DNA from: Persicobacter psychrovividus | Lineage (GTDB): Bacteria > Bacteroidota > Bacteroidia > Cytophagales > Cyclobacteriaceae | Direction of reading: 5' to 3' | Length of the DNA stretch: 64,000 nucleotides | Assembly: GCF_036492425.1 (NCBI RefSeq) | Contig: NZ_AP025295.1 | Span: 310,001-374,000 of the forward strand | In this document: positions 8,947 through 25,662 of the stretch, piece after piece | Position numbering within the stretch: position 1 is the first letter of the stretch | Layout: every line of letters starts with the position of its first letter | The notes under the pieces: model-generated | What the model was told of the DNA's origin: nothing | Database searches by the model: none | What the model saw: only the letters and a program-made list of their open reading frames with translations | Made by a program: the position numbers and the translations under genes

Positions 8947-9030
8947 CAGACTGATTTAAGTAATTTGAAATCAACATTAATTTGCTTAAAAAGCTGTATC
9001 TTTCGATGTGAAATCAATAAAAACGGAAGG

Positions 9031-9399
9031 ATGTCGAAAGTTATTTTAGAAGGGAAGTGCCCAAGGTGTCATCAGGGGGATATGTTCCAGTACCCTTTGG
9101 CGAAATTGCATAAATTCAGTGATATGAATGAAAAATGTGCACACTGTGATTTCCGATTTGAAGTGGAACCAGGGTTCTTTTTCGGGGCAATGTACATTTC
9201 CTACGCTGTTTCTGTTGCCATTTTTATTGCCGTAAGTATTGGCCTGAATGTACTGGTAGAAGAACCCAGCCTTTGGATGTACCTGGCGGGGATCAGTATT
9301 GTGGCCATCACGTTATTGCCTTTTACTTTCAGGTATTCCCGAATTATATTTTTGCACTGGTTCGGAGGGGTCAAATACGATGCTTCCTTCGCTAAATAA
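9031..9399 (+). CDS. DUF983 zinc-ribbon membrane protein
   Basis: A 122-aa protein. An N-terminal zinc ribbon is made by two CxxC knuckles (GKCPRCHQG and EKCAHCDFRF). The DUF983 signature EVEPGFFFGAMYISYAVS runs into a first membrane segment (about 55-80), and a second membrane segment lies at about 85-105. The ATG at 9031 was chosen over an upstream in-frame start at 8965 because it has a purine-rich ribosome-binding sequence (ACGGAAGG) directly before it, and the family starts just before the zinc ribbon. It may share a transcript with the acyltransferase gene, which ends 84 bp upstream. Function is unknown; the family is common in Bacteroidota. Confidence 0.9.
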   Translation: MSKVILEGKCPRCHQGDMFQYPLAKLHKFSDMNEKCAHCDFRFEVEPGFFFGAMYISYAVSVAIFIAVSIGLNVLVEEPSLWMYLAGISIVAITLLPFTFRYSRIIFLHWFGGVKYDASFAK

Positions 9400-9412
9400 T
9401 GTCAAACTGGGT

Positions 9413-9513
9413 TTAATTGTCCCTTTTTGGGAAATGTAAATAATTGAAAATTAGACAATTAAGCATGTTGAGGTGATTTTGTGTTAATATTCAAATATTA
9501 TTTAAGACAATTA
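9413..9513. promoter_or_regulatory. Three GACAATTA sites (candidate enhancer sites)
   Basis: The 8-mer GACAATTA occurs three times: inverted at 9414-9421, direct at 9454-9461 and direct at 9506-9513. The first two extend to a perfect 9-bp inverted repeat (TTAATTGTC ... GACAATTAA). They are centred about 149, 109 and 57 bp before the predicted start of the sigma-54 transcript, the range used by bacterial enhancer-binding proteins. Confidence 0.5.
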
Positions 9514-9538
9514 CGATATATATAAGGCTGACCCAATT

Positions 9539-9555
9539 TTGGCATAAAGCTTGCA
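9539..9555 (+). promoter_or_regulatory. Sigma-54 (RpoN) promoter, -24/-12
   Basis: TTGGCATAAAGCTTGCA matches the sigma-54 consensus TTGGCAYR-N4-TTGCA with the exact 12-bp offset between the GG (9541-9542) and the GC (9553-9554). A transcript should start near 9565-9567. No such match was noticed in the other intergenic regions of the window. Confidence 0.7.
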
Positions 9556-9564
9556 AATTAAATT

Positions 9565-9620
9565 GCATAGGTTGATGTTGGGTTGAGGGGCGGAAATACT
9601 TTGTGTTTTCGCCCTTTTTT
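9565..9620 (+). ncRNA. Candidate sigma-54-dependent small RNA, about 55 nt
   Basis: This segment lies between the sigma-54 promoter and a strong intrinsic terminator and is too short for a gene; its only ATG (9574) is followed by a stop after three codons. The 5' part is G/U-rich and has GGTTGA twice (9570-9575 and 9581-9586), a plausible single-stranded seed. The 3' part is the terminator hairpin and U-tail, the usual build of a bacterial small RNA. ATAGGTTGAT (9567-9576) is perfectly complementary to the leader of the PagL-like mRNA starting at 10912. This is inference from sequence only. Confidence 0.45.
9588..9619 (+). terminator. Strong intrinsic terminator
   Basis: GGGCGGAAATAC pairs with GTGTTTTCGCCC around a TTT loop (12 bp, two G-T wobbles), followed by seven T. 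It is 190 bp after the DUF983 stop codon and 33 bp after the sigma-54 -12 box. Confidence 0.88.
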
Positions 9621-9633
9621 TATGCCACGAAAA

Positions 9634-9651
9634 AACCACCCGAAGGTGGTT
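9634..9651 (-). terminator. Terminator of the PagL-like gene
   Basis: AACCACC and GGTGGTT flank a four-base loop that reads TTCG on the minus strand, and a T-run follows on that strand. It lies 22 bp after the stop codon of the PagL-like gene ending at 9674. Confidence 0.88.
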
Positions 9652-9673
9652 CTTAGCATTTCTTTATGAGCGC

Positions 9674-10912
9674 CTATTGGCCGAAACGGTAACCGATTTG
9701 CCATTCGAGAAAATCAGCAACTGAGAAGTGATAAGCTCGGACATATATTCCCGCGGTAATATCATTGTAAACATTATACTTCAGACCAATTCTTTGGTAC
9801 ATGATCGGTTTTACACCACTGTAATCATCCTTTCTTAAAATGTATGCTCCTGCATTGATCAAGATTGAAAGACGATCCAATACCAATTCATAGGCAGCGT
9901 ATCCCCCAAGGCTTACTTTGTCGCCATTGTGTAAGGATTCTACTTTTTCCAGTTCTCCTCCTTCGTTGAAATCCACCTGTGCATTGATCGACTCGTCATA
10001 GTTTAAGTCAAGCCCTGCACCAAATTTTGATTTCTGACTGATACGCTTCATGTAATAAGCGGTCAGGTTAACGGCAAGGTAATCAATATTCGCATATCTG
10101 TTTTCTTCGCCTACTTTATCAGTATCAAAATCAATTTGTTTTGAAGTGAACGACAAACCAATATTTAATTCTTTTTTCTTTTCTATTGGATCTAACTGTT
10201 TTCTTACCAAATCCCGTCGCAAGTTATTATTGAAATTGTACTGAACCGCCAAATAAGGTGCCATCAGGTTAATTCCATAATTAGGCGTTGATGAGGCTCC
10301 ATTTGAAAAGTGAGTAAACCCAGCACCAGCAGAAAGTTCCCAACGGTCCGTAAGTTCGTAATCTACCTTCAGGGCTGCTTCAATATACACGGTCTTAGAA
10401 GAACCAATGGCAATTTGAAATGGGTTGTCTGCTGGGTGGTACGGATTCCAGTTATAGGTAAGTCCGAAACCTATTCTGTAGCCAAAGCTGAATCGGTTCC
10501 ACCGTTTGAAAGGCCCTTCAAAATACCCGTAAATAGCTGATGGCTGCCCGAGTAAACTGGAAACTTCGGCATTATTTACATCGAAAAAATGCGCGGTGTA
10601 AAAGCCAATACCGTATTTCGGAAAGTTATAGGCATGTTCCCAGTCGTGCTCTCCAAAAGTTTGTTTTCCAAATTCAATAGCAAAAGATTGGTAATAATCT
10701 GTTGCGGGTAAGTCGGCATATTCCTTATTGTCTCCCAAGTTTCCTTTAAGGAAATCATTGGTCAGTAAAACAGCGCCGGCCTGGTATTTAAAACGAAGAT
10801 GGAAGTTTCGTTTGTTATGTTGTTTAAGGCTGTCCAATGAACTTGCTGTGGCACTGAATGGCCCCATAAGCAGCAAAAAAGCAGCCGCAAAAATGTAGGT
10901 AAAATGTTTCAT
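9674..10912 (-). CDS. PagL-like lipid A 3-O-deacylase (paralogue 1)
   Basis: A 412-aa outer-membrane beta-barrel protein, with a signal peptide (IFAAAFLLLMGPFSATA, about residues 6-22). The motif FTHFSNGAS near residue 200 carries the His and Ser of the PagL catalytic triad. The barrel closes with EWQIGYRFGQ. Family knowledge: PagL removes the 3-O acyl chain of lipid A in the outer leaflet. At over 400 aa it is more than twice the length of the classical PagL barrel; the C-terminal half looks like additional barrel strands. The start at 10912 (MKHFTY) was chosen over 10933 because 10933 lies inside the predicted -7 box (10933-10940). A paralogue lies at 11546-12760 with tag between them. Confidence 0.85.
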   Translation of the reverse strand: MKHFTYIFAAAFLLLMGPFSATASSLDSLKQHNKRNFHLRFKYQAGAVLLTNDFLKGNLGDNKEYADLPATDYYQSFAIEFGKQTFGEHDWEHAYNFPKYGIGFYTAHFFDVNNAEVSSLLGQPSAIYGYFEGPFKRWNRFSFGYRIGFGLTYNWNPYHPADNPFQIAIGSSKTVYIEAALKVDYELTDRWELSAGAGFTHFSNGASSTPNYGINLMAPYLAVQYNFNNNLRRDLVRKQLDPIEKKKELNIGLSFTSKQIDFDTDKVGEENRYANIDYLAVNLTAYYMKRISQKSKFGAGLDLNYDESINAQVDFNEGGELEKVESLHNGDKVSLGGYAAYELVLDRLSILINAGAYILRKDDYSGVKPIMYQRIGLKYNVYNDITAGIYVRAYHFSVADFLEWQIGYRFGQ

Positions 10913-10916
10913 AGGT

Positions 10917-10931
10917 ATAGGTTGATCAACC
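10917..10931. promoter_or_regulatory. Palindrome in the PagL-like leader
   Basis: GGTTGATCAACC at 10920-10931 is a perfect 12-bp palindrome between the predicted -7 box and the start codon. ATAGGTTGAT (10917-10926, plus strand) recurs exactly in the candidate small RNA at 9567-9576, so that RNA is complementary to this mRNA leader. It could be an RNA pairing site or a dyad operator. Confidence 0.5.
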
Positions 10932-10932
10932 A

Positions 10933-10961
10933 CAAATTTATGATCAAATATGTAAAAACAT
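10933..10961 (-). promoter_or_regulatory. Bacteroidota-type promoter of the PagL-like gene
   Basis: On the minus strand TAAATTTG (10933-10940) is a perfect TAnnTTTG -7 box. The -33 element 18 bp upstream is weak (ATG instead of TTG). The transcript would start near 10926, leaving a 14-nt leader. Confidence 0.55.
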
Positions 10962-11545: not shown

Positions 11546-12760
11546 TTAGCTTTTAATGAATCGGTAGCCTACTTGCCATTCTATAAAATCGGCGATACCG
11601 AATTTGTAAGCACGCACGTAAATTCCGCCATACAGGTGATCAGTCGCCTGGTATTTTACCCCCAAACGTTGGTACATGACTGGTTTCATGCCCTCGTAAT
11701 GCTCGCGCAACAGGTAGGCGCCCACATTCATCACCAAAGATACTTTATTGACCACTAATTCATAGCCGACATACGAGCCCGCACTTAGCTTGTAGATTAA
11801 TTTATTCTTTTCCTTTTCAGGAATACCTTGCTCGTCTTCACGAACCTGTGCATGACTTGACTCATCGAAATTCAGGTCAATACCTACACCAATCTTTGAT
11901 TTCTGACTGATGCGTCGCATGTAGTTGGTGTTAATATTGGCGGTTACGAAGTTAAGATCAGGGAAAGGGGTATTCGGCGTATTTTGTGGATTGCTGATTT
12001 GTTTGACACCCATGGCGTACCCGATATTAACTTCATCCTTTTTTTCAAAGGGTTCCCGTACACGCTCATTAAATTTGGGTGCAATATTATCGTTGAAATT
12101 ATATTGTACACTCAGGTAGGGGGCAAATAGGTTGACTCCATAATTGGGCGTTGTTGTCGCTCCATTTGAAAAGTGCGTGGCAGAAAAACCTGCCTGCAAA
12201 TTCCATCTTGGGCTGACCATATAATCCACAAAAGTACCCGCCTCGATATAAACTGTTTTTTTTGATCCAATAGCCACCTGAAAATGATTGTCATCAGGGT
12301 CGTAGGCATTCCAATTGTAAGTCAGACCAAAGGCCATCCGATATTGTAAACTAAATCGGTGCCACCTTTTAAATGGGCCTTCAAAAAAGGCGTAAACAGC
12401 CATGGGGTGGCCAAGTTCATTGGCTGCTAATCTCTGATCCTCATTTTCCTGGTCATAAAAAAAAGCGGCAGTATAAAAGCCCAGGCCATATTTAGGCATT
12501 AAGTAAGCACGTTCCCAAGCCTTATTGCCCGCAGTTTGCCGACCATATTCAAGGGCATATGCATGGTAATAATCGATAGGCGAAGAAGTTTCGTTATCGC
12601 CTTTCAGAAAATCGTTGGTTAAAAGTACTTTTCCCGATTGCGATTTTATTTTTAAGAAGCTGTTGTTGGTATTTTGAGCAAAAAGGTGTGGTGGGGAAAA
12701 GGGTAGCCAAAGTAAAATGAGCACGATTAGCGTGCCTGTCAGGTTGTCGTTTTTTTTCAT
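11546..12760 (-). CDS. PagL-like lipid A 3-O-deacylase (paralogue 2)
   Basis: A 404-aa outer-membrane barrel with an N-terminal signal (LIVLILLWLPFSPPHLFA). It aligns along its whole length with the protein at 9674-10912: both have LLTNDFLKGD/N, KYGLGFYTA/KYGIGFYTA, FEGPFKRW, the catalytic motif ATHFSNGAT near residue 194, NYGVNLFAPYL and a C-terminal EWQVGYRF. It should act on lipid A in the outer leaflet. The tag gene starts 7 bp downstream, so the two are probably one transcript. No clear TAnnTTTG was found upstream, and the palindrome in the leader of paralogue 1 is absent here, which suggests different control of the two copies. Confidence 0.85.
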   Translation of the reverse strand: MKKNDNLTGTLIVLILLWLPFSPPHLFAQNTNNSFLKIKSQSGKVLLTNDFLKGDNETSSPIDYYHAYALEYGRQTAGNKAWERAYLMPKYGLGFYTAAFFYDQENEDQRLAANELGHPMAVYAFFEGPFKRWHRFSLQYRMAFGLTYNWNAYDPDDNHFQVAIGSKKTVYIEAGTFVDYMVSPRWNLQAGFSATHFSNGATTTPNYGVNLFAPYLSVQYNFNDNIAPKFNERVREPFEKKDEVNIGYAMGVKQISNPQNTPNTPFPDLNFVTANINTNYMRRISQKSKIGVGIDLNFDESSHAQVREDEQGIPEKEKNKLIYKLSAGSYVGYELVVNKVSLVMNVGAYLLREHYEGMKPVMYQRLGVKYQATDHLYGGIYVRAYKFGIADFIEWQVGYRFIKS

Positions 12761-25427: not shown

Positions 25428-25662
25428 AGAATAGCATTTGGGCATCTAATCTTACAACTCTCCCGCGGGCATTTATTTTTCAAACAATTATCAATAGCCT
25501 GATTTATTCGCTAACCGCAGCTTTTTATGTTGTATGCTTTTTATCGTCTTTTTTTACTGTTGAACAGCTACAGTGGCTTTGTATGCCTGATGTATCCGAA
25601 TTATTGACTGAAATTTGCCCCATCGTTTCGATATTGGAATTTGATTTTTAGGAAAGACTGAT

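Follow-up and report, generated by a model that had tools for sequence, protein, structure and literature searches.

A multi-copy family of predicted sigma-54-dependent small RNAs in Persicobacter psychrovividus

A -24/-12 promoter box followed closely by a terminator-like hairpin, with no room for a gene between them, raises the question of whether it drives the synthesis of a small RNA (sRNA) or has come by chance to lie before an ordinary terminator. One such arrangement is found in the 64,000-nt stretch of DNA of the marine bacterium Persicobacter psychrovividus analyzed here (positions 310,001 to 374,000 of NZ_AP025295.1; referred to as the window), which lies on the 379,741-base replicon C4 of a genome with 6,148,614 bases and 13 contigs.

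Anatomy of the window copy

The sigma-54-type box TTGGCATAAAGCTTGCA (positions 9539 to 9555, plus strand) has the standard spacing, in agreement with an earlier note on this DNA that described a near-perfect -24/-12 element with exact spacing. Setting the RNA start at the established distance of 12 nt past the C of the -12 element (9565 to 9567 being the likely positions) and taking the end from the fold gives a predicted small RNA of about 56 nt at 9566 to 9621 on the plus strand. It contains a 5' core, AGGTTGATGTTGGGT (9569 to 9583, plus strand), which is the proposed pairing seed, and ends with a predicted intrinsic terminator (9585 to 9621, plus strand), recognized by both folding and a terminator scan and consisting of a 15-bp hairpin at 9585 to 9617 and a T run at 9615 to 9621. 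The inner hairpin, GGGCGGAAATAC-TTT-GTGTTTTCGCCC (9588 to 9614), has 12 bp, begins about 33 nt past the end of the box, and is followed by seven T residues, just as originally read. The expected product of about 55 nt with no frame longer than three codons is likewise borne out, as the sole ATG frame in the predicted RNA of the window copy is ATG TTG GGT TGA; frames started from GTG or TTG cross the terminator and, counted so, reach up to 14 codons.

The gene upstream, a member of the DUF983 family (8965 to 9399, plus strand; an open frame from the TTG at 8965, with an ATG at 9031), serves as a syntenic marker in Persicobacter sp. strain JZB09. Downstream, a convergent gene of the PagL family (9674 to 10933, minus strand), identified as an open frame with a family match, appears to have a separate terminator-like hairpin of its own (9634 to 9651, minus strand), which was seen by eye and falls under the threshold of the terminator scan. 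The PagL-like product and that of a frame at 11546 to 12760 (minus strand), which by eye looks like its paralogue, are similar outer-membrane-type proteins encoded nearly in tandem.

Taken alone and in one genome, the box does not exceed chance expectation: the pattern TGGCN7TTGC with up to one mismatch is found 69 times in the window, compared to 68.9 expected, and 55 of 100 shuffled sequences reach that number (the exact pattern is found three times). The hairpin folds at -20.2 kcal/mol (z score of -4.2), a value equaled in 1 of 200 shuffles, and the terminator scan of positions 9350 to 9750 found one terminator, against a mean of 0.2 in shuffled sequences. Searches of the window revealed no tRNA and no Rfam family at the gathering cutoff. 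The looser matches, L20_leader (E value of 0.0033, 24.6 of the required 58.7 bits), the best one for the window unit, and sroD (E value of 0.0046, 24.9 of 50 bits), were taken as chance because they fall under their cutoffs. With a promoter box and a terminator of its own and no conserved reading frame, the unit has the makeup of a stand-alone small RNA gene.

Ten copies and their conservation

When the region was compared by blastn with the genome it comes from, short paralogous matches to the 5' portion of the RNA were obtained, and ten units were recognized in all, of which C1 has one, C2 seven, and C4 two. With the core only (AGGTTRATGTTGGGT) as the query, which thus includes no promoter, exactly ten sites are found in P. 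psychrovividus. At all ten, GGCA-N6-TTG starts 27 or 29 nt upstream of the core and a hairpin lies downstream of it; at the five core sites outside this genome (one in each of five of the 290 other genomes), the box is never present. It is because of this recurrence at ten core sites that the combination of box and hairpin goes beyond chance. The same result makes it barely credible that a chance box sits before an ordinary terminator that merely ends readthrough from the DUF983 gene, with no transcript starting there. The chance level of the box in the window and the orientation of the DUF983 gene toward the hairpin would suit that explanation, but the upstream genes differ at the other copies, and the syntenic copy in JZB09 retains the letters of the box despite a changed spacer. 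The description of a stand-alone sigma-54-dependent sRNA, which gains support from the relatives and from the presence of RpoN (see below), needs correction in one respect: the RNA would not be a lone one, as ten copies exist.

The broader pattern TTGGCAYN5TTG is found at 52 places in the genome, compared to 23 for the reversed pattern. Among 30 of these loci that were read, L093 alone lies between genes and has a terminator-like hairpin; L073 and L082 combine the pattern with a hairpin inside reading frames, and the remaining ones lie in frames or before genes. Seven of the other 22 places are copies of the family. Directly upstream of the C2 copy h (L026, positions 2083 to 2200; from position 406582 of C2), there is a further sigma-54-like box, TTGGCACAAACATTG, together with ATAGGTTAATATA and, some 100 nt farther along, a strong terminator; model R2 matches the same place in Persicobacter isolate 477. 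The locus L024 (positions 176 to 589) contains an open frame made up mostly of a repeated 10-residue unit of the YEVESLTELP type. Two core-like repeats on C13, the smallest replicon, GGTTGATGTTGGGT and GGTTGATGATGGGT, located 93 bp apart downstream of a bioD-like gene (positions 25565 and 25658 of C13; L220, 1501 and 1594), were rejected as extra copies, having neither box nor terminator; the JZB09 match there is confined to a different part of the query.

An alignment of 21 copies (20 distinct rows) shows the -24 GG and A, the -12 TTG, and 14 of the 15 core letters to be invariant, whereas the majority letters in the six spacer columns account for only 38 to 81%. The conservation of the box is partly circular because the model or rule used to choose the copies already contained the box and the box-less L186 and L323 were left out; the core-only test is free of this circularity. 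A hairpin with a T-rich tail is found in 20 of the 21 copies (z scores from -2.3 to -4.8), the exception by the hairpin rule being the copy in genome G044, which has no adjacent T run. The stem sequences differ between lineages. Since the core, AGGUURAUGUUGGGU, stays nearly identical while the stems are free to change, the function would be expected to lie in the core.

In six of the ten P. psychrovividus copies (C2 a, c, d, e, f, and h), and likewise in six of the eight full copies in JZB09, a second conserved stretch, AATCATAGTGGTTCATAAGGTTATAGTTTGGTATTAG, and another hairpin with a T run come next on the 3' side. By eye, the second stem reads AGCTCGG/CCGAGCT in one species and AGTCCGG/CCGGACT in the other, so that two positions differ and pairing is kept; in the RNAalifold prediction for the second stretch, which does not contain this stem, none of the 17 pairs is changed on both sides. 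A sigma-70-like promoter considered for the second RNA was dropped because its -35-like letters are not kept in JZB09.

The downstream context bears on whether the unit could be a sigma-54-driven leader or attenuator of the next gene. C2c, C2d, C2e, and C4g do precede a codirectional gene, located about 280 to 490 nt downstream, but the window copy, C2b, C2f, and the copies next to maf face convergent genes, and the second hairpin, where present, likewise ends in a T run, leaving a leader function very improbable.

Copies on plasmids and chromosomes of relatives

Persicobacter sp. strain JZB09 was found by blastn of a plasmid collection. Model R1 has 12 matches at an E value of ≤1 on three plasmid records of this strain. 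They comprise eight full units, two (L186 and L323) that have the core and hairpin with no recognizable box, and two (L188 and L324) that have neither. L181 is the syntenic partner of the window copy, located downstream of, and in the same orientation as, a DUF983 homolog (73% identity over 119 amino acids), and C4g and L184 form a second syntenic pair, whose neighbor is 72% identical over 254 amino acids. Both pairs retain TGGCAT, TTG, the core, and most of the hairpin but have diverged in the spacer and the upstream flank. Box and hairpin are therefore conserved together at these loci, a point that the earlier note wanted checked in relatives, with L186 and L323 as contrary cases. The remaining six full JZB09 units have no shared neighbor within the 3-kb loci.

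Three Persicobacter genomes (P. psychrovividus, isolate 477, and G001) and Aureibacter have a chromosomal unit between maf and smr; in the 27 other family loci among the 30 smr loci read, the maf motif is absent from the 1.5 kb upstream of smr. Genome G044 carries one unit at another place, the one whose hairpin lacks a T run next to it. The family probably descends from the chromosomal maf-smr copy.

These shared positions also bear on the idea of a repeated mobile or selfish DNA element whose sigma-54 promoter is incidental and whose copies have no regulatory role. Such an element might account for the presence of 7 of the 10 copies on one replicon with nearly identical hairpins, for the second hairpin shared by six copies, and for the box-less L186 and L323, which could be decaying copies. 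It is nonetheless rather improbable, given that two plasmid copies and the chromosomal copy occupy the same places across species, that conservation is limited to the box, the core, and stem pairing, and that no terminal repeats were seen by eye in the alignment of the copies.

Model R2 matched 21 of the 245 genomes of the taxonomic family at an E value of ≤0.01, and values below 1e-5 (under stricter filters) were obtained in five (G000, which is P. psychrovividus, G064, G001, G011, and G044); confident members are found only in these 5 of the 245 genomes, all from the Persicobacter, Aureibacter, G001, and G044 lineages. The loci of the 16 other matched genomes were read; at one of them, L296, an 18-nt core match lies in simple repeats with no box. 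Near positions 1470 to 1620, two loci from other genera of the taxonomic family, L300 and L309 (genomes G051 and G411), have a sigma-54-like box and, within about 100 nt of it, a terminator; their cores are of the AGGTTTAGGTT type, unlike the family core, and they are possibly other sigma-54 small RNAs, judging from sequence. The order-wide core-only scan found sites in 6 of 291 genomes, including P. psychrovividus; the candidate L099, with TTGGCA and no matching -12 element and with a hairpin lacking a T run some 75 nt down, was rejected. A pattern scan within the taxonomic family, allowing up to three mismatches, gave hits in 21 of 60 genomes; inspection of seven loci left only L037 (Aureibacter) apart from this species. 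A scan of one genome per species returned 20 stretches, eight of which (nine matches) belong to isolate 477; the other 12 were taken as chance after reading because none combines a box, the core, a strong hairpin, and an adjacent T run.

RpoN, a candidate activator, and possible targets

The earlier proposal depended on the presence of rpoN, and the P. psychrovividus genome does encode RpoN (PF04552, E value of 9.5e-57), along with five clear sigma-54 activators (E values below 1e-60; another six AAA+ matches, which are weaker, were not counted). The units thus have the sequence features expected of sigma-54 promoters, i.e., -24/-12 elements at standard spacing in a genome with RpoN and its activators. 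One of these activators, encoded at positions 1314687 to 1315844 of C1 (L142, 8688 to 9845), starts some 1.8 kb away from the chromosomal copy, past smr and the RNase P RNA gene rnpB (RF00010, 281 bits). It consists of receiver and AAA+ domains, and no HTH domain was detected at an E value of ≤0.01 in it or in its Aureibacter counterpart; among the other four activators, three have HTH_8 above the cutoff and the fourth has only matches below it. P. psychrovividus, Aureibacter, and G001 share the order maf, sRNA, smr, activator, and motif matches indicate the same order in isolate 477. In G044, and by motif matches in G024, smr adjoins the activator, and neither genome has the sRNA between maf and smr. 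The alignment of the copies reveals no visible shared upstream site, which an activator without DNA binding would suit. From this neighborhood, we infer that the neighboring activator serves these promoters.

The pattern CCCAACATYAACC with up to one mismatch is found at 42 places in the genome, ten of them in the sRNA genes and 32 elsewhere. Six of the 32 complement sites lie in sense orientation at -35 to +12 of an ATG, as assigned by a simple gene caller. In 244 kb of control DNA, permuted patterns fell at starts in 11 of 808 and 51 of 2,913 cases (1.4 and 1.75%), and the real pattern did so in none of 14 cases at two mismatches and in 6 of 154 (3.9%) at three; the tail probabilities for 6 of 32 are 4e-6, 2e-5, and 0.0013 at rates of 1.36, 1.75, and 3.9%, respectively. 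By eye, five of the six start-site proteins have an export-signal-like start. G001 and Aureibacter together have 38 sites that are not in the sRNA genes; 28 of these were read, and 2 of the 28 lie near starts. An exact complement located 74 nt before a gene in L209, outside the start window, is a further lead. The start-codon signal is a lead rather than a result, and targets are only suggested by it. Exported-protein targets would fit the sigma-54 regulon of Flavobacterium psychrophilum, which, in the available part of PMC9723704, covers protein quality control, envelope stress, gliding motility, and exported proteins.

The most likely interpretation is a set of redundant sRNAs that would act in trans, with a Qrr-like logic, and pair through the 5' core. 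RpoN polymerase would transcribe an RNA of ∼56 to 70 nt from its own -24/-12 promoter, with the intrinsic terminator ending it; the response-regulator activator without a DNA-binding domain, past smr and rnpB, would be the prime candidate activator. Once a sigma-54 activator fires, many loci would simultaneously yield RNAs with one seed, and this seed could pair with mRNAs bearing ACCCAACAUYAACCU-like sites, perhaps near the start codons of exported proteins, whose translation would be lowered. Instead of antisense pairing, the RNA might bind a protein through its core as a sponge, in the way that CrcZ/CrcY act on Hfq-Crc. A fixed G/U-rich core in many RNAs suits protein titration, and no conserved target site emerged from those read in G001 and Aureibacter, but the P. 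psychrovividus genome has an excess of core-complementary sites at start codons (6 of 32), which speaks against a sponge, and the sponge is considered unlikely. A multi-copy family of RpoN-transcribed sRNAs, acting in trans as antisense RNAs through the core and served by the neighboring candidate activator, is therefore favored as the probable explanation, with good confidence. A bolder version, a sigma-54 sRNA regulon of Bacteroidota, appears speculative: one activator without a DNA-binding domain would simultaneously fire some ten sRNA genes, dispersed and amplified on plasmids, over half of which form two-RNA cassettes, and so lower the synthesis of exported proteins, with L300 and L309 hinting at sigma-54 sRNAs with other cores in other genera of the taxonomic family.

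Relation to known systems

Redundant sigma-54 sRNAs are familiar in Vibrio and Pseudomonas. The qrr1 gene adjoins luxO, and the Qrrs are Hfq-dependent; CrcZ and CrcY, which counteract Hfq-Crc, are longer than the RNA predicted here. As described in the accessible text of PMC2680268, Qrr1 to Qrr5 of Vibrio harveyi are near-identical sRNAs with sigma-54 promoters and one response-regulator activator, LuxO. The family described here similarly has several redundant, near-identical sigma-54-type copies with a common seed and a candidate response-regulator activator, as read from the DNA; unlike in the Qrr system, the candidate activator has no HTH domain and there are ten copies, mostly on secondary replicons. 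Qrr is not among the Rfam matches to the window unit at E values up to 10, and no sequence relation was seen. The CrcZ/CrcY RNAs of Azotobacter and Pseudomonas, redundant RpoN-dependent sRNAs under the response regulator CbrB, with crcZ adjoining cbrB (PMC6292655, in the portion available), have a similar logic, with redundant sigma-54 sRNAs and a response regulator.

Within Bacteroidota, the 14-member paralogous FopS family (RF04319) of Bacteroides thetaiotaomicron, which represses translation of SusC-like transporters, is likewise a multi-copy sRNA family; according to excerpts of PMC11697453, its promoters are canonical sigma-ABfr ones, recognized by the primary sigma factor, whereas the unit described here has a sigma-54-type box. 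RF04319 did not match the window unit at E values up to 10 and gave 15.7 bits, compared to the cutoff of 56, at L175. For a sigma-54-dependent sRNA in Bacteroidota, of which the earlier note knew no case, a precedent exists: in F. psychrophilum, the putative regulatory RNA Rfp36 is listed behind a -24/-12 (SM4) motif (Table 2A of PMC9723704, as far as available). It is a single table entry, with no multi-copy family described in that part of the paper, and the likeness lies in the motif listing. The same source describes this flavobacterium as having no Shine-Dalgarno sites and a primary promoter of TAnnTTTG. Literature titles and abstracts on sigma-54 or rpoN sRNAs in Bacteroidetes and Cytophagales, and on Persicobacter, yielded no report of this family. 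Redundant sigma-54 sRNAs being already known, the novelty lies in the sequence, the unusual candidate activator, and a multi-copy sigma-54 set in a phylum where none was found.

The occurrence of this architecture in so distant a phylum suggests that the circuit evolved convergently. The distribution of the copies across the chromosome and plasmids raises the question of how replicon copy number sets the sRNA dose. The seed is fixed, there are ten natural replicates, and the candidate activator is a single one, so that sigma-54 function in these Bacteroidota becomes directly testable.
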